The notes under the pieces are model-generated. The model searched no databases, was not told the origin of the DNA, and saw nothing but the letters and a program-made list of their open reading frames with translations. A program made the translations under genes and the position numbers. 64,000 nucleotides of DNA from Lyophyllum atratum (lineage: Eukaryota > Basidiomycota > Agaricomycetes > Agaricales > Lyophyllaceae): NCBI GenBank assembly GCA_014905825.1, contig JACGCN010000012.1, forward strand, positions 124,001 through 188,000, written 5' to 3'. This document shows, piece by piece, positions 1 through 10,040 of the stretch (position 1 is the first letter of the stretch; every line of letters starts with the position of its first letter).

Positions 1-400
1 TCTGTCTTTACTATAATGGCCTTGGAAAGAGACTTTGCACTGATGCCGTGCATGAGTATCACAATCACTGAAGGAATCATAAATGCAGAGAGAAGGATTA
101 TAATGTCAGACAACATACTGATGACACATGTCAAGAGGTCTGTGTCTGTCAATGTCTTTATTTGCGTCAGTTGGCTCCCTATTTGCTGATGAGATAAGAA
201 TATACCTGGACATGGACGTCAAACCCGTGGATAAGAGTTGACATGAGGCAAGTCAAGGCTGTCTTTGCAAGTATATAAGTAATTATAGAAACAATATGTG
301 TTGGCAGAAATATACTTCATTTTCTTTTGTCTGAAAGGGACAATCATGAACACCTGATGAGTGATGAGCTTTACAGTGGGAAGAATTTTAGACATACTAG
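1..400 (-). CDS. Possible 3' exons of the array gene; hydrophobic reading frame running off the window
   Basis: After the last 3-nt exon a 55-nt intron-like stretch (455-401) ends in TTTAG. One parse continues through exon 400-375 and a 44-nt intron into a frame closed by TGA at 219-221. Separately, the minus-strand frame from about 214 to base 1 is open for some 70 codons and contains a strongly hydrophobic run (IIILLSAFMIPSVIVILMHG) that looks like a membrane segment. It may be a further exon of the same gene, continuing beyond the window, or a remnant of another one. No ATG, domain or family could be assigned. Confidence 0.3.
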
Positions 401-3097
401 CTAAATATGACTGGTGATAAGATAAAAAACAGAGGGAAATGATGCAAAGACTCACCATCTACATGCAACCGGCATTCAGAAAATCGGCTAACAAATACTT
501 CGGATGGAAAATGTAAATACTCACCAACTATGCAAGGATAGCACCCAGGACATGAGCTGACAGAGAATTCAAATGGACGACACACAGACTCACACCCTAA
601 TCAGAAACAGTTCTCAAGGCATCAGCTGGTGAGGGATCAGATCAAGGATGCACATGCTTACACGCTATATGAAACCAGCACCCAGAATATCAGCTGATAA
701 AAAATGCAAATGGAGGAGGCACAGACTCACAACCTACACATGAACAGTAACACAGACATCAGCTAGTAAATTCAGATAAAGAATGGATAGACTTACACGC
801 TATGCATAAGCAGCACCCAGGGCATTAGCTGGTAAAGAATTCAGATGAAGGATGCATGACTTACTAACTATACGGAAATAGCACCCATGGCATCAGCTAC
901 TGAAGTATTTGGATGGAGGATGCGCAGACTTACACGCTACCCAGGACCAGCGAGTAGAACATCAGCCAGTAAAGATGATGGAAGATGGGAAACACACAAT
1001 CTACACAGGAATAGAATCCATGATGTCAGCTAGCGAAAAATTCTAATGGAGGATATACAGACTCACATCCTGTACAGACAGAACATCCAGAACATCAGCT
1101 GACAAAGGTTTCAAATGGCGAATGTACAGACTTACGTGCTATACAAGAATGGCATTTTGGACGTTAGCTGATGAAGAAATCATAGAAAATGCACAGACTT
1201 ACATCCTGTATAGAAATAGCACCGGGATATCAGCTGGTGAAGAAGTCAGATGGTGGATATAAAAACTTGCCAACTATGCAAAAACAGCACCCAAAATATC
1301 AGCTGGTGAAGAACATAGATAGAAGATGCATAGACTCACATTCTACACAGGAACAGCACTCAGAAGATCAGCATACAAAAAATCCACATGACCCATGCAA
1401 ACACTCACATCCTACAGGATAACAATGTCCAGTACATTAGCTGGTAAAGAATTCAGATAGGCACAGACTCACATCCTGCATAGAAGTAGCACCCAGGACA
1501 TAAGCTAGTAAAGAATTCAAACGGAGGATACACAGACTCACCCACTATATAGAACAGCATTTCAAACATTAGCTGATGGAGAAATCAAATGGAAGATGCA
1601 TAGACTCACATTCTAACCAGTAACGACACCCAGGACATTAGCTAGTGAGGAACTCAAACGTCAAATGCAAGGCATACATTCTGCATAGGAACAGGGCCCA
1701 GGACATCAGCTAGGGAAGAATTCAGATGCAGCACACACAGACTCACCCACTACATAGTAACAGCACCCAGAACATCAGCAGGTGAAGAACTCAGATGAAC
1801 AATGCCAAGACTCACATCCTACATAGCGACAGTACCCAAGACATCAGGTAGCGAAGAATTCAGATAGATGTACAGCCTTACGTGCTATGCAAGAACAGGA
1901 ATTTGGACGTTAGCTGATGAATGAGTCAGATGGAAGATGTACAGACTCACATCCTATACAGAATAGCACCCAACACATTAACAGGTGAGAAATTCGAATC
2001 CCAGAGGATGCCAGACTCACATCCTATACACGAACAGCATTCAGAATGTCAGTAGGCAAAGAACTCAGAATTTAGATGAAGGATGCGTAGACTCACCAAC
2101 TACACAGGAATAGCACCCAGGACATCAGCTGTTGAGCAAATGGAGGGTATCCAGACTTACATTCTACAAGGTAACAGCATTCAGACATCAGCTGGTGAAA
2201 CATATGCAAGACATACAATCTGCAGAGGAACAGGAGCCAGGGTATCAGCTGGTGAAGAATTCAAATGGAGAAAGTTTAGACTCACATTCTATACAATCGA
2301 AACCATGAGGACCCAGGACATCAGCTGGCAGATAATTTAATTGGAGGATGTACAGACTCACGTCCTATGCGGAAGCAGCACCAGGACATCAGCTGGTGAC
2401 GAAATCAGATGAAAAATGCACAGACTCACCCACTAAACAGACATGGCACCCAGGATATTAGCCTGTAAAGAATTTAGATGGACGATGCATGAGACTTACA
2501 TGCTATACAAGAACAGTATCCAGCACATCAACTTGTAAAAAATTCAATGCACACTCACATGCTGAACAGAAACAGCACCCGGAATATTAGCCGGTGTCAA
2601 GTAGAGAATTCGTGGACTCACACGCTGCACAGAAATAGCAGGCAAGGCATCAGCTGATGAATAACTCAGATGAAATGCACAAACTCACACCCTACCCAGG
2701 AGTGGCACCCAAGACATCAGCTGGTGAGAAATTCAAATGGAGGATATACAAGCTCACATCCTATACAAGCACTTGGAACATGAGCGGTTGAAGAATTCAG
2801 ATGGACATGGCGCAGACTCACAAACTACAGTACCCAGCACATCAGTTAGTGATAAGTTTAGATAAAAGATACAAACTCACACTCTAGATGACAGCAACCA
2901 CCAGGACATCAGCAGATACAAAACACAGTTGGACAATTCATACACTTACAAACTAATAATAATGCATTAGCACACAGAGCAAGGTAGACCTTAAGTAGTC
3001 CAGATGTCCATTTTAATGATGTTCACTTACCATCTAAAGAACAGCAGTAGTCATGTTATCTTGGTAGTACTTCCTCTTCTCAATATTAATGACTCAC
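401..3097 (-). repeat. Tandem array of about 39 intron-like units separated by 3-nt exons
   Basis: A degenerate ~68-bp repeat (spacing 56-81 bp). On the minus strand each unit reads as a complete intron: donor GTGAG/GTAAG, a branch-like CTGAT or CTAAC 20-30 nt before the end, and acceptor TAG or CAG, followed by exactly three nucleotides and the next donor. Triplet starts (+ coordinates): 3031, 2950, 2881, 2822, 2758, 2689, 2622, 2559, 2500, 2430, 2362, 2286, 2217, 2161, 2097, 2021, 1951, 1882, 1816, 1747, 1678, 1610, 1542, 1473, 1409, 1340, 1271, 1203, 1136, 1067, 998, 934, 865, 797, 731, 662, 594, 525, 456. Donors by my count: 24 GTGAG, 11 GTAAG, 2 GTATG, 1 GTGTG, 1 GCAAG. All 39 acceptors end in AG. 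The array sits just downstream of, and in phase with, the GTPase exons. What it encodes is uncertain; the repeat itself is certain. Confidence 0.9.
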
Positions 3098-4440
3098 CAT
3101 AAAAAAGCCTACGTAGTTGACCATTTTATGTAGTAATGGTGAACCGGAGCCCAGCATTACTTCGTCTGAGTCACAAAAAATTAGTTGCCTATACAAAGAC
3201 CCAAACCATTGAATCCATTATTCACTTGCATTGGTCCTCAAGGTCCTATAATGAGTACGGAATTAGTCTGTGTGTGATACTTGTGTCAAACATCTTTGCA
3301 TACCAATAAAATAGCCAAAATGCAGTTTGCAGGATATTGCGATGCCATACAACAGATAGCAATGCTTTGAGCTTAGGCCCACGTAGACCCTGCTCTGTTA
3401 AGCTGATTAGATCATTACATAGTCGAGCACTCTCATCAGTAAGTTCTTGCATGTCTGTCGTCACATCAGTGATTAGTATTCGCCAATCTGGCCCGGGTTA
3501 GCCATACCGCTCGTAGTGATAAATGCTAGGGCAGCCTCTGACTGGCTCAGTTGTTTCAGCCCCTCTTGCCGTTTCTTCAAATGTTCCGTAACGTGTGTCT
3601 CTGCTTTCATGCGGGCTTGCTTCCTAAACGCTCGACTGCTTGATGAACCCCCTATGATGTCTTGTGTGGCCTTTGAAACAGCGCCATCTCGCTTTGTAAA
3701 GATGATGATCAAAGGAGCTAGGGGACATTCAAAAAGTGACATCGTTTGAACGTTATTCATCCTGCACTACTCACTGTCTCCCCTCAACCAGCAAAACGGG
3801 TCCTTTTCCGCCTCAGATAAGTCACGGGAGTCGTCGAGCGGGAGGCACATCCTGGCAATAACGTGTCAAGCTCGCGCGGAGCGGATGGAAAGCAACAGTC
3901 GTACCATATAGCATGCAGCTGTTCTTTGATATTCTTCGCTTCAGACGAACGATACTCTGCGAACTTCCTTACGGTGGAAAGCTCTGTGGATGACCCAGCT
4001 TCAATTCCCAGTGAGTCATGAAACACAAATCCCGGCCGAGAAGGAAAGCGAATCTCATCCTCAACGTTGTGTAAACCTCGCTGCCAACATCGTGGACAAA
4101 TCAGCACCCATCGGATGTAACATCAATAGGTGAGAAACATACGCCGCTCTGGCCTTCGATTGTCTATGATTTGGTTCGATCAGCGTGGTTGAAGCATCCG
4201 ACCGTGACACACCTGGCTATTCAATAAACTCCCATCTCGCCAGACCTGTGCTTGGTCTCTGGACGCGCCGGTAAGCCTCTCAAGGATTGTAGTCTTTCCG
4301 GCATTTGCACGGCCCAAGATAAGGATCCGGAATTGCAAGCCCCTTCCTGTGAAGAACGACAAGCCTGATTCATCAGAGTCGTCCGGCTCATCCACGATCT
4401 CATTGTCGGAGGGCACGTCGGTAGCGGGAATTTTATCCAT
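3098..4440 (-). CDS. P-loop GTPase (agaricomycete G-domain family), exons 1-7
   Basis: Seven exons fit one reading frame: 4440-4213, 4080-3905, 3851-3775, 3717-3508, 3454-3304, 3245-3226 and 3165-3098; introns are about 50-130 nt with GT-AG ends, and the phase closes at 310 codons. Seen: an acidic N-terminus, the G1 P-loop GRANAGKT at residues 43-50, a G3-like FHDSLG, and the G4 motif IIIFTKRDG. This is the layout of the large agaricomycete family of soluble GTPase-like proteins of unknown role. The last exons become hydrophobic (QTAFWLFYW). The frame leaves exon 7 in phase 0 and enters the array of 3-nt exons at 401-3097. If the stop at 3246-3248 were used instead (no splice at 3303), the protein would end before the array. 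The ATG is the first in frame before the P-loop. Function beyond nucleotide binding is unknown. Confidence 0.8.
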
Positions 4441-4539: not shown

Positions 4540-5460
4540 AATTTCTGTTATTGGATTATCCGTGCTAGTTCTATCAACGTCAGCCATGTCAAGCGAAGCC
4601 AGTCCATTCTTGTACCCTACACCGACGTCCTGCGCCAAAGGTGTCGTCCGCGAGTGCATCCCCTTCCTCAGCGACTATCATTCGCTTGAGCCAATCGCAA
4701 GTTTGCTGCTGGGAAGCCTGCATCGATCGATGCATTGTTTGGTGTCCGCACGACGGTGAGTTGCTACTCCTTCCAAACTACACCCGTCTGTGTTCTCACT
4801 TTTTTTCCAGTTCCATGTCTCACAGAATACGGGGAGTGCATGTCGTCGATAGGCCACTCAATTCCCAGAAAATCATCCACGACTTGAAGGATTCGAGACA
4901 CGGAAGAGTTCAGAGTTACAGAAGGTGATGGACTTCATTGACCGTCGATCCAAAATGCCAGCGCTTGGTGATCGATTGCATGCGATTTGGTGAGTCATTG
5001 CATGCGATTTGGTGAGTCATTGCAGGCCCCGCCCTTTGATTGATCGTCCCCTGAGTCTTGCACTAAAGTTTGCGCAGAAATCTCGTCCGCAGGGGGCAGG
5101 GGGCAGACCATTTGAGAAGGGCGTCGTATCATTCCGACGACATGTCAAGAGACTGCCGCCGCTGTTCGAGCCATCGTCGTCTTTACCAAATTTGACATCC
5201 TCCATGAACATCGCGAAGCAAAGGTGGACAAGAACTCGAAACAGAGGAACTAGGACTTGGATGACGAGAAATGCCAGTCCAGAGTCGAAGCTATCGTCAA
5301 TGAAGCTGTGCAAACCCTTTGCGTCGAGCCCTTATGGGCCCCCAGGTGCGCTACGTCGGCGTAGTTCGTATCAGGTCCAAGTTCTGACGCTTTGATTGGG
5401 GGGAAGTGTCTCTCCGATGTATTCTTAGACATCACGATAAAGACGTGCTACAAGTCTTGC
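4540..5460 (+). pseudogene. Decayed P-loop GTPase relic
   Basis: Pieces of a second agaricomycete GTPase can be read on the plus strand, opposite in orientation to the gene at 3098-4440. Around 4900-4990 lies the segment SELQKVMDFIDRRSKMP followed by LGDRLHAIW; around 5165-5330 lies a G4 motif VVFTKFDIL followed by HEHREAKVDKNSKQRN, an in-frame TAG, and then DLDDEKCQSRVEAI. No intact P-loop was found upstream. A 21-22 bp segment containing the donor-like GGTGAGTCA is duplicated in tandem at about 4978-5020. The premature stop, frame changes and missing G1 support a pseudogene. It belongs to a different GTPase subfamily from its neighbour (TKFD versus TKRD). Confidence 0.6.
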
Positions 5461-6487
5461 AAGCGCATATTGTGAGCGCATGGCAGATACGGAGGAACCT
5501 GAAAAGGTAAGTGATCGTTCCCCTCCATAGACGCCTCTCATCATCATCGCCGATGGATCAGCATCTCAAAGCGCCGGATTTTCTTGCCTTGTTATCGGTG
5601 CTGGAGTGGATCTCTCTGACGAGGGCAGGTCTGTAGTGTTTTCGCCGCTCCGTGCTAAATTCTGATTTAGGGAAACATATCCTCTGACCACAACAGCCGT
5701 GACATCAGTCATTGAACATCCCTCTGCCGCCATCACCATCGTCCGTCCCACAGCAATAGTCACACTCTTGGCGGAGTGGGTACGAGGAACGTGTAAGCCA
5801 ACGTCAGTTTCTGTCTTCCCGGGATGTTCAATCCAAAGAGTGATAGTTTGTTTGGTTTGAACCTCCAGATCCTTTGGTCCTTATGTGGGTGGCGTCCTAC
5901 TCGTATTCGGGGACGTTTCGGCATCACGCACGACGAAGGATGGTCAAACCACGCTGTCTACCTCGGGAACCGATGCGCCAACTGCGCTTCTTCTGGATAG
6001 GACGTGACCCTTAATACTCGATGAAAAAGGCCTCCAGGACCGTCGTCGTTCGAAAGTATGGCCGATGCTGAGGCTCCCTCAGTCTTGGATCCTGGAACGA
6101 AAGACGACAGCTACGGAGGCTGATGCACGGGGTCGTATGTCCGGACGCTATTCAGAATATAAGGAGCCGGCCTCGGTCCAGGTCTCCTGCACCTAGTCGG
6201 ACATCAAATTACTATGGGCCACGTTTGAGGATCTTAAATACAGTGGAGATGCGACCAGAGCCCACCTTCCTTAGAGCATGGCTTCAATGCGACAATCAAC
6301 TACACACTAAGAAGATAAGGCCAAGTTAAGAAAATAGAGTCGAGAAGTAAAAGTCAACGTACCACTTGTGACGTATCACCTACAACTTCGATCTCAGAAA
6401 TCGCAGGTCGGCTATGAAGGTCTCCACGGCGAGACATAGGCGGCATCAATACCAGAAGCATAGCATGAAACATCGTCCTCCCAAGAC
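5461..6487. other. Intergenic stretch, no gene supported
   Basis: Only short open frames on both strands, without domain motifs or consistent splice structure. A possible trailing exon of the GTPase relic (about 5470-5507, with a GTAAGT donor) is the only coding-like signal. Confidence 0.5.
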
Positions 6488-8743: not shown

Positions 8744-10040
8744 TCGCACACTTATGGCAGACGCGACATTGACGCTCCTGACACAGTCACATCGATTCTT
8801 TGTACCATACCTGCCATTGCGACGACAATATATCGTCTGTGGATTCGGCGAGGGCGATACTGGGCCGACGATGTAAGTTTTACCCTCCTTCACCCGCGAC
8901 TCTTTTAACACATGAAAGGTATGGGCTCTGTGTTCTGCCCTTTGTCAAGTCGTGGGGTTGTCAGCGACCTGGGTGCACGGCAACCATTCAAGTCCGAAGG
9001 CAGCCAAGATTGCAACCTACTATCTTATGGGATCATCATTCTACGGTTTGATCTGGTGCGTTACACCCTCTTGCGAAAGTTCGTCGTTTCTAAAGTTCAC
9101 TGCAGGTTTGCTCGCCTTTCTATCGTGTTTTCCATAATTCGAATCGATCCAAGCGAGACCCGACGGCGACGTTTGTTCATTGTTGCTTTTTTATTCTTTC
9201 TCGCGATTCTTGTTCTCGTTTCCCAACTCTTCTGGGTTTGTGAGCCCGCACCAAGCTGGAAGGAGGAAAGCAATGTGGAATGCCTTCCTACTGATCAGGA
9301 AGCCATCCTCCAGATCATCAGTGAGTCCTTCATTCCTTCATCGACGATGGCCCCATTCATCACTCCGTTTTGGTAACACAGCCGACATTTTGTCAGACAC
9401 GATTCTCATTGTTGCCCCTCTAAGGATCCTTCGTTCTCTCCAAGATAAGAAACTACGACGACGTTTAACAGTGATTTTTTCGACTTGTCTTGTTATCACC
9501 GCTGTCTCCCTAGCGCATGCGATACTAATTTTCTTGCGTCCGTAAGTGCTTTGCACCCTTGTTCCAATGTCTGTATCATTAACGGTGTTGGAATACTGTC
9601 GCAGCGGACCTAGAGTGGTCATTGCTGCCATCGTAGAGGGCTGTGTATCCCTTATTGTGTGCAACGTTCCGGTGGTTGTGACATCGATGCTCCGCATGTG
9701 GCAGCGAAGCAGGCAGCACGACAAGGCCAATATGACCCAACTCCGATTCGCAAGCCACCATCCCAGTGCTAGTGCTGGAGATATTCTTAATATAACTAGC
9801 AACCCGACGCTAGGAACGGATACCTGGATGAATAAGTTCCGCTGGGAGCGGGAGCTGCGAGATCTGGAAGAGTCTCGCGACAGCGACCTCGTCACGACAG
9901 TTCTAGCAGATTTCGAGACGGCGGACACACATATGGGCACACAGCATTCAGACGACTCTAGGATAGTCTCGCTGGCGATAGAGCGCAGCGAGATTGATGG
10001 TGCTATCAAGGTCCACTCTGTGGAATTACCATTCCAATAA
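8744..10040 (+). CDS. SAT4/rhodopsin-like integral membrane protein
   Basis: Exons with matching phases: about 8744-8872, 8919-9055, 9106-9320, 9382-9541 and 9605-10040; introns 46-63 nt. The translation has several hydrophobic helices and the hallmarks of the fungal seven-helix 'integral membrane protein' family: RLWIRRGRYWADD before an early helix, FSIIRIDPSETRRRR, FWVCEP, then DILSDTILIVAPLRILRSL and VSLIVCNVPVVVTSM in the last helices. A ~115-residue cytosolic tail follows. In ascomycetes related proteins include Pth11-type receptors; the basidiomycete members are uncharacterised and may sense extracellular cues. The N-terminus is not resolved: the frame is open from 8744 without an ATG, so a short upstream first exon is expected near 8690. 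A long minus-strand open frame over 9338-10135 is antisense noise. Confidence 0.75.

Follow-up and report, generated by a model that had tools for sequence, protein, structure and literature searches.

Rows of predicted single-codon exons between complete intron signals in GTPase genes of the mushroom Lyophyllum atratum

Schistosome micro-exon genes carry many consecutive short exons whose lengths are multiples of three nucleotides (nt), such that skipping keeps the frame, and their product is secreted and bears a signal peptide. Here we analyze a row of 40 predicted 3-nt exons that follows the GTPase exons of a gene in a 64,000-nt stretch of the Lyophyllum atratum genome (assembly GCA_014905825.1, contig JACGCN010000012.1, positions 124,001 to 188,000; hereafter the window, numbered from its first letter), and compare it with four further rows in the same genome. 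The row in the window is designated A1 and the others A2, A3, B1 and B2, on the contigs C24, C81, C46 and C76, respectively; C24 also carries the window. Like the schistosome genes, the L. atratum arrays would consist of consecutive short exons in multiples of three (40, 18, 41, 22 and 37 predicted 3-nt exons); unlike the longer and varied schistosome exons, they would all be one codon long, and the repeat unit is the intron. The predicted product of the window gene begins with a GTPase domain.

Isolated 3-nt and 1-nt microexons are described from Arabidopsis APC11 (PMC4674806) and Fusarium CYP621A (PMC12940212), and for the 1-nt microexon of APC11 the authors favor intron definition with successive removal of the two introns (PMC4674806). 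The L. atratum arrays would share with these genes a mis-annotated exon of one codon or less between ordinary introns, but instead of a single tiny exon they would comprise 18-41 in an unbroken row, one codon each, separated by tandemly repeated introns. RPS24 likewise has neighboring microexons that are hard to map with short reads (PMC11162997, PMC12686416), whereas the L. atratum rows run to dozens, all of one codon. At the ratchet points of recursive splicing an acceptor and a donor nearly touch, as in the arrays, and splicing must be stepwise; ratchet points subdivide long introns and leave 0 nt in the mRNA (PMC8605326), whereas each step in L. atratum would leave one codon. The Podospora HNWD allorecognition genes contain repeats that evolve in concert and vary in number (PMC1805685, PMC2873952), and diversifying selection acts on four residues of each repeat (PMC1805685). 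Repeat number also varies between the presumed L. atratum alleles (18 versus 41, 22 versus 37), but where HNWD repeats a coding WD40 unit, in L. atratum the intron is the conserved part and the hypervariable codon would make up the entire exon. Introner elements and stwintrons, as described, are also fungal introns that multiply by sequence copying; these spread between genes or nest, whereas the searches placed the L. atratum units in a single gene family, arranged head to tail. We know of no family with rows of one-codon exons, and no paper on such rows was found among open-licence PMC papers judged from titles and the starts of abstracts.

The window gene lies on the minus strand, and its eight GTPase exons (4440 to 3098), not seven as in the initial annotation, encode 317 amino acids in frame without a stop and, as that annotation had it, enter the array in phase 0, exon 8 reaching the donor at 3097. 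The array that follows consists of 40 units of the form AG-NNN-GT, from ATG at 3033-3031 to CTA at 400-398; the row of consecutive single-codon exons first described is thus real, with a count of 40 in place of about 39. The first intron is 64 nt long; between triplets, the 39 introns measure 53-78 nt, and 19 have a length divisible by 3. Intron length varies by indels of any size, and the exon is constant at 3 nt. The donor after the triplet is GT in 39/40 units and GC in 1/40 (GCAAGT after TTG 1273-1271), so that the single GC donor stands and the earlier figure of 38 GT donors among 39 does not. All acceptors are AG, as claimed, and are YAG in 40/40. The branch-like motif also recurs in the unit alignment, where it is CTRAY-like, and together with the GT or GC donors, the YAG acceptors and the open coding frame between them gives the features of U2-type introns. 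Retention of an intron would cause a frameshift or stop in 34/39 units, and because every array intron is in phase 0, the frame would survive the skipping of any codon. We consider it likely that these 40 codons, each between complete GT(GC)-AG intron signals, are joined by successive splicing and give the GTPase a variable loop of 40 residues. Stwintrons were considered as a description of the units and set aside: nested signals would be expected, and each unit has its own donor, branch site and acceptor in series.

The splice signals of A1 are conserved out of proportion to the rest of the unit. Across 39 aligned units (mean pairwise identity 0.63), the obligatory signal columns (G1, T2, G5 and the terminal A and G) are changed in 1/195 cells, versus 25% on average in the other intron columns; the binomial value of 1e-23 is a guide and not an exact probability, as the units are related. 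Degenerate positions vary only within the splicing consensus, position +3 being A or G in 39/39 and position -3 T or C in 38/38 aligned units. The donor reads GTRAGT in 32/40 array units, versus 1/7 introns between the upstream exons of the same gene. A neutral minisatellite would be expected to diverge regardless of splice signals, and was rejected for A1 on the contrast of 1/195 with 25%.

The spacing of the signals was evaluated by a dynamic-programming chain of intron links under assumed exon lengths of 0-12. At length 3 the A1 chain has 40 links and a score of 440, and at every other length at most 18 links with a top score of 111 (length 7), which bears out the proposed minus-strand chain of introns exactly 3 nt apart. 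At most 6 links were obtained in 200 dinucleotide shuffles of A1, 5 on its antisense strand, and no more than 5 in 31/32 of the 4.2-kb window tiles on both strands. Sense scores of the other arrays are 202 (A2), 479 (A3), 225 (B1) and 404 (B2), with much lower scores at wrong exon lengths in all five arrays (up to 18 links in A1 and A3); the antisense strand of B1 gives 3 links and a score of 18. The triplet counts of A2 and A3 exclude a leading AAG placed there by the chain program, whose preceding intron would measure 13 nt, and one of the 18 A2 triplets is a program stand-in for a unit whose true donor is CTGAGT. Zero-length ratchet points were also tried and rejected: exon length 0 gives 1-3 links, versus 19-42 at length 3, where the figures for A2 and A3 each count one first link that is spurious.

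These data bear on a second explanation, in which the whole array forms a single long composite intron, or a minisatellite carried in an intron, and is spliced out between the first donor and the last acceptor; its internal sites would resemble splice sites only through having been copied from an intron. Expansion and contraction of tandem units (18 in A2, 41 in A3), low-scoring chains in homogeneous arrays even in antisense (35 links in A3) and a few homologous models that join the flanks almost directly fit such an intron. The near invariance of the signal columns, the confinement of degenerate positions to the consensus, and the 40 sense versus 5 antisense links of the diverged A1 do not, and neither do the unrelated introns of B2, still exactly 3 nt apart, or the conserved residues and low-complexity stretches of homologs, both described below. 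We regard a composite intron as very unlikely.

Further arrays were sought in the genome by DNA, pattern and protein searches, and four were found (Table 1), all after homologous GTPases and at the same gene position as A1. The pattern search gave 60 matches, those listed all falling at the five array loci, and 2 in a reversed control. DNA searches with the units returned 57 matches in 3 loci and 20 in 2 loci, array loci only among the best candidates scored (5/5 and 2/2). Introner elements, which should have copies in many unrelated genes, were rejected on this result. The GTPase paralogs C (C24:891.5k, C81:79.2k) and D (C46:880k, C76:420.6k) showed no array, with longest chains of 1-3 links (L012, L014, L016, L018). 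In the A2/A3 pair the flanks share 98.8-99.1% identity across 3.7 and 0.7 kb and, on the opposite side, 93% across 7 kb; those of B1 and B2 are 73% to 99% identical, with 98% over 3.7 kb. Each collinear pair most simply represents two haplotypes, which would make two further array genes, and the two members of each pair have different numbers of triplets. The window gene and A2 are paralogs (synonymous divergence, dS, 0.44), with a ratio of nonsynonymous to synonymous divergence (dN/dS) of 0.34 in the upstream exons. The B GTPase is more distant, at 42-47% identity to the window GTPase over the best-matching exon, and its array introns are about 75 nt long and differ in sequence from the A units. 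In A3, unit similarity peaks at a shift of 8 units (0.88, versus 0.84-0.87 at other shifts), a probable sign of block duplication.

The start of B2 provides the strongest single test. Its first nine introns have a mean pairwise identity of 0.41, or 0.35 without the splice signals, versus 0.33 against shuffled introns, and are spaced by exactly 3 nt with all triplets in phase 0; the later B2 introns share 0.83 identity. Nine links were reached in 0/5000 dinucleotide shuffles of this 583-nt stretch. A minisatellite would predict one ancestral repeat, which A1 itself does share, and cannot explain the start of B2, where introns that are mutually unrelated are still exactly 3 nt apart. Joining of B2 triplets would give the string ACTAATGCTAAGTATGATAAGGAACAT.

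Beyond A1 the reading frame is picked up again in phase 0 by predicted exons at 330-316, 262-206 and from 155 to outside the window (Table 1), and the stop codon of the last lies about 210 bases beyond the window on the same contig. A predicted extra intron in A1 accounts for two one-base differences from A2/A3 in 205-156. With dN/dS values against A3 of 0.50 in the C-terminal exon (122 codons) and 0.14 in the exon before it, the downstream frame of the window gene is under purifying selection. The public model of the window gene, P0125, stops at the array: its 317 residues are identical to our exons and are followed by M, the first triplet ATG, and by VSEHH, an intron read-through. A gene that ends at the array, its transcripts being polyadenylated or running on into the first intron of the array, as the NCBI models have it, and its downstream exons being remnants, is suggested by this M-VSEHH terminus, by P0001, which ends NKVRRLF..., and by the 40/55 homologs with an FPHVW-like motif (of 124 homologs) that end within 40 residues after it; it is contradicted by the purifying selection downstream and by the homology of the downstream frame to C-termini in other genera, and we give it hardly any credence. 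Gene finders rarely place 3-nt exons, which would explain the truncated models. Truncation after the same motif in these 40/55 models suggests that the layout may be common in mushroom GTPases.

The C-terminus after B2 aligns with proteins of Galerina, Mycena and Favolaschia and is 37% identical over 112 positions to that of protein P0004, and the last part of the A3 tail is 41% identical over 75 amino acids to the C-terminus of Mycena P0178. When the final portion of P0004 served as the query, 8 proteins were recovered, P0004 among them. P0004 is one uninterrupted 430-residue open reading frame on a 1669-bp JGI contig and, because L. atratum genes have many introns in the same part, is most likely a spliced transcript. 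The segment that links FPHVW to its C-terminal domain is TNAEYDLDPRPPDRLHRPRRDPRPLRRDPLLCF. Its FPHVW-TNAEYD corresponds in L. atratum B2 to an exon ending FPHVW followed by single triplets for T, N, A, K, Y and D, and the same place reads ANFEYD in P0006, VNAE in P0039 and RNAE in P0112. Asn at +2 with Glu or Lys at +4 occurs in 4/54 proteins with the FPHVW motif, a pattern recognized only in hindsight.

In a set of 237 proteins, the five 20-residue windows of lowest complexity beyond residue 230 (P0113, P0178, P0004, P0102 and P0214) all lie at, or no more than 30 residues after, the array site. P0113 has about 69 low-complexity residues and then VSM, which may be read-through of a GTGAGTATG donor. 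Three Mycena A-type models have a stretch rich in Asp, His, Trp and Tyr at the array site, P0178 reading SFHDSDDWDGW and WDYFWHDDHHDYWDDHDYDDDFD, P0157 LHHYDRYDRYDPFYFDD and P0164 YHDNYYRDYDDY; these resemble MFSFDGRHHWDNINLDDHDWNNWDDN in the window array. Of 61 A-type proteins examined, 26 have the LGS-like motif of exon 8; in 6 of these, the window gene among them, the exon ends in M and one further residue precedes V-S, and in another 6 V-S comes directly. Such continuations would be read-through of GTRAGT donors after one or no codon, in other species to judge from the protein models. As a separate observation, P0113, P0102, P0214 and P0237, from other taxa, have about 20 to 70 low-complexity or biased residues after an FPHVW-like motif and are candidates for further single-codon arrays.

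The initial annotation had preferred continued splicing to a neutral minisatellite, and that preference is upheld by the signal constraint, the length-3 chain, the two further array genes, the nine unrelated B2 introns, the in-frame conserved C-terminus and the matching stretches in some fungal proteins; the downstream gene part, the paralog arrays and the hypervariable codon are additions to it. Inclusion of the triplets in L. atratum mRNA is likely on this evidence.

The triplet is more variable than every three-column intron stretch in all four arrays compared (A1, A3, B1 and B2; 0 of 64, 64, 73 and 72 windows), A2 being left out as a short relative of A3, and is flanked by the most conserved columns of the unit. 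Relative to the 34 flanking intron bases, the nearest-unit rate ratio of the triplet is 3.7 in A3, 9.9 in B2 and 1.7 in A1, values that are inflated by the choice of neighbors by flank similarity. Over all pairs, the difference is 0.61 in the triplet versus 0.17 in the flank in A3, 0.50 versus 0.18 in B2 and 0.63 versus 0.51 in A1. This codon excess suggests diversifying selection. No stop occurs in 158 triplets, versus 6.6 expected by column shuffling (P 0.00025), although the haplotypes are not independent; with A1, A3 and B2 the figures are 0/118 and 4.3 (P 0.005), and A3 alone gives P 0.03. For the A arrays, a further reason for the lack of TAG could be that it would create a competing acceptor.

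A third possibility is that the single-codon exons are real and the loop is merely tolerated, its codons being unconstrained and the introns kept alike by gene conversion and splicing constraint, with neither recognition nor diversifying selection. The A1 nearest-neighbor triplet rate, at only 1.7 times that of flanking intron bases, and the lowering of intron rates by branch and polypyrimidine constraint are in its favor. The higher ratios of A3 and B2, inflated though they are, speak against it, as does composition: the A arrays favor Asp, accompanied by His, Trp, Arg or Asn, and 3/10 Mycena A-type models that span the site are rich in Asp, His, Trp and Tyr there; with such bias the loop may not be free. 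We hold a tolerated loop to be quite possible, if somewhat short of an even chance.

Several results weigh against splicing of the triplets one by one into the mRNA. Antisense chains reach 15 links in A2, 35 in A3 and 17 in B2 (scores 63, 170 and 83), and B2 gives 27 and 26 links at exon lengths 7 and 10 (scores 139 and 99). Chain length alone is non-discriminating in homogeneous arrays, where any recurring motif chains, so that the case rests on the diverged A1, the unrelated introns of B2 and column conservation. The rate excess of codon over intron is weakest in A1, and stop avoidance is not significant in A1 alone, where the absence of stops noted at the outset holds (0/40) but is unremarkable by column shuffling (P 0.28), or in B2 alone (P 0.56). 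For the three L. atratum genes found, the NCBI models (P0125, P0126 and P0001) end at or just inside the array. Both sides are joined with almost no residues between them in P0017, P0019 and P0091, and 7/10 A-type models that reach the C-terminal part have no Asp/His/Trp/Tyr-rich stretch (P0133, P0135, P0137, P0138, P0169, P0173 and P0184); the block may therefore be absent or skipped in some genes. One A2 unit has a lost donor (TAG-TCG-CTGAGT; L011 about 8965-8970, C24:888.96k), the A3 haplotype has an insertion of about 6.5 kb in its G-domain exons (C81:71795-78325; L009 end to L018:2325), and the B1 C-terminal exon is without 20 bases present in B2 (L022 about 3415-3440, C46), a deletion that would shift the frame of that haplotype. 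Some haplotypes may thus be non-functional. The flank matches of the A3 insertion overlap by 9 bases, an overlap that the 9-base target-site duplication of a Mutator-like transposon would produce. The A2 unit with the lost donor offers a natural test of breaking one link in a chain.

If the triplets are spliced in singly, each 50-80 nt intron would be recognized by the spliceosome through intron definition. Simultaneous processing of neighboring introns only 3 nt apart is hard to envisage, since sites so close cannot all be occupied; the introns would then be removed in order, 5' to 3' in the simplest case, and with each splicing event the upstream exon would grow by one codon. This codon would take the place of the usual exonic half of the 5' splice site, and we propose that the strong intronic half (GTRAGT in 32/40) compensates for this. 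Unequal exchange between similar introns could add, delete and reorder codons without a frameshift, and the loop would diversify residue by residue. Joining of the triplets in the mRNA would break the working assumption of a minimum exon size for definition in series and provide, with dozens of introns 3 nt apart, a natural substrate for testing ordered splicing; it would reveal a gene layout missed by the public annotation of the array genes, and protein sequence could evolve one residue at a time through intron recombination.

Our best reading of the product is a disordered, hypervariable loop between the G domain and C-terminal helices; a role in recognition, in allorecognition or immunity, is its most likely use, speculative as this is. 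The peptide might also serve as an acidic and aromatic segment that binds metal or forms condensates, and the array might act as a timer of splicing. A more far-reaching idea, which we entertain tentatively and think rather unlikely, is a codon-by-codon diversification system for non-self recognition across Agaricales, in which each residue of the GTPase recognition loop has its own exon, the repeated introns act as recombination spacers and optional skipping multiplies isoforms. If true, it would amount to exon shuffling at single-amino-acid resolution, with alleles gaining, losing and swapping single residues without frameshift.

Table 1. Positions of the window gene and its array A1 (window numbering) and of the other arrays (contig coordinates)
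Feature	Position	Strand	Remarks
GTPase exon 1	4213..4440	-	start ATG, P-loop GRANAGKTT; same protein as NCBI model P0125
GTPase exon 2	4143..4163	-	21 nt
GTPase exon 3	3905..4080	-	
GTPase exon 4	3775..3851	-	
GTPase exon 5	3508..3717	-	TKRD motif
GTPase exon 6	3304..3454	-	
GTPase exon 7	3226..3245	-	20 nt
GTPase exon 8	3098..3165	-	ends phase 0 at donor 3097
Array A1	398..3097	-	40 predicted introns, one-codon exon after each; reads MFSFDGRHHWDNINLDDHDWNNWDDNLDHDIRLRVRGLML
A1 triplets 1-10 (starts)	3033 ATG, 2952 TTT, 2883 AGT, 2824 TTT, 2760 GAT, 2691 GGT, 2624 CGT, 2561 CAT, 2502 CAT, 2432 TGG	-	
A1 triplets 11-20 (starts)	2364 GAC, 2288 AAT, 2219 ATT, 2163 AAT, 2099 TTG, 2023 GAT, 1953 GAT, 1884 CAC, 1818 GAT, 1749 TGG	-	
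A1 triplets 21-30 (starts)	1680 AAT, 1612 AAT, 1544 TGG, 1475 GAT, 1411 GAT, 1342 AAT, 1273 TTG, 1205 GAT, 1138 CAC, 1069 GAT	-	
A1 triplets 31-40 (starts)	1000 ATT, 936 CGT, 867 TTA, 799 CGT, 733 GTT, 664 CGT, 596 GGT, 527 TTG, 458 ATG, 400 CTA	-	
Last intron (predicted)	331..397	-	after CTA codon
15-nt exon (predicted)	316..330	-	TKENE; paralogs have GTEDK
Exon TALTCLMSTLIHGFDVHVQ (predicted)	206..262	-	dN/dS 0.14 versus A3 over 19 codons
C-terminal exon, start	1..155	-	hydrophobic segment then helical tail, predicted
Array A2	C24:888.5-889.7k		18 triplets
Array A3	C81:68-70.8k		41 triplets
Array B1	C46:888.6-890.1k		22 triplets
Array B2	C76:427.0-429.7k		37 triplets

Pfam gave weak G-domain matches only, to MMR_HSR1 with an expectation value (E) of 6e-5 for the window protein (above the cut-off) and 8e-4 for B2 (below the cut-off), and nothing for the C-termini of the array genes. 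An AlphaFold2 model from a 45-sequence alignment with P0004 first has a mean predicted local distance difference test score (pLDDT) of 84; besides residues 1-4, stretches of three or more residues with pLDDT <50 occur only at 280-287 and 294-296. This low-confidence loop sits between the G domain with its helices and a confident C-terminal helical part. The first Foldseek matches of the model are IniA, Irga6 and the bacterial dynamin-like protein BDLP (E 4e-6 to 2e-5), with a template modelling (TM) score by query of only about 0.3, followed by G-alpha chains at similar E with about 250 columns aligned. Kinship of the array GTPases with dynamin-like proteins or immunity-related GTPases (IRG) is a lead only.

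A divergently oriented GTPase paralog adjoins A-type array genes, at 4692-5820 in the window and at L012:1393-2825, and no array was found in the divergent paralog near C24:891.5k. Array gene and paralog seem to have been duplicated as a pair, the stretches being 74-78% identical. The neighboring GTPase-like stretch in the window also contains, at 4965-5024, a 22-base tandem repeat of 2.7 copies that holds GTGAGT on the plus strand.

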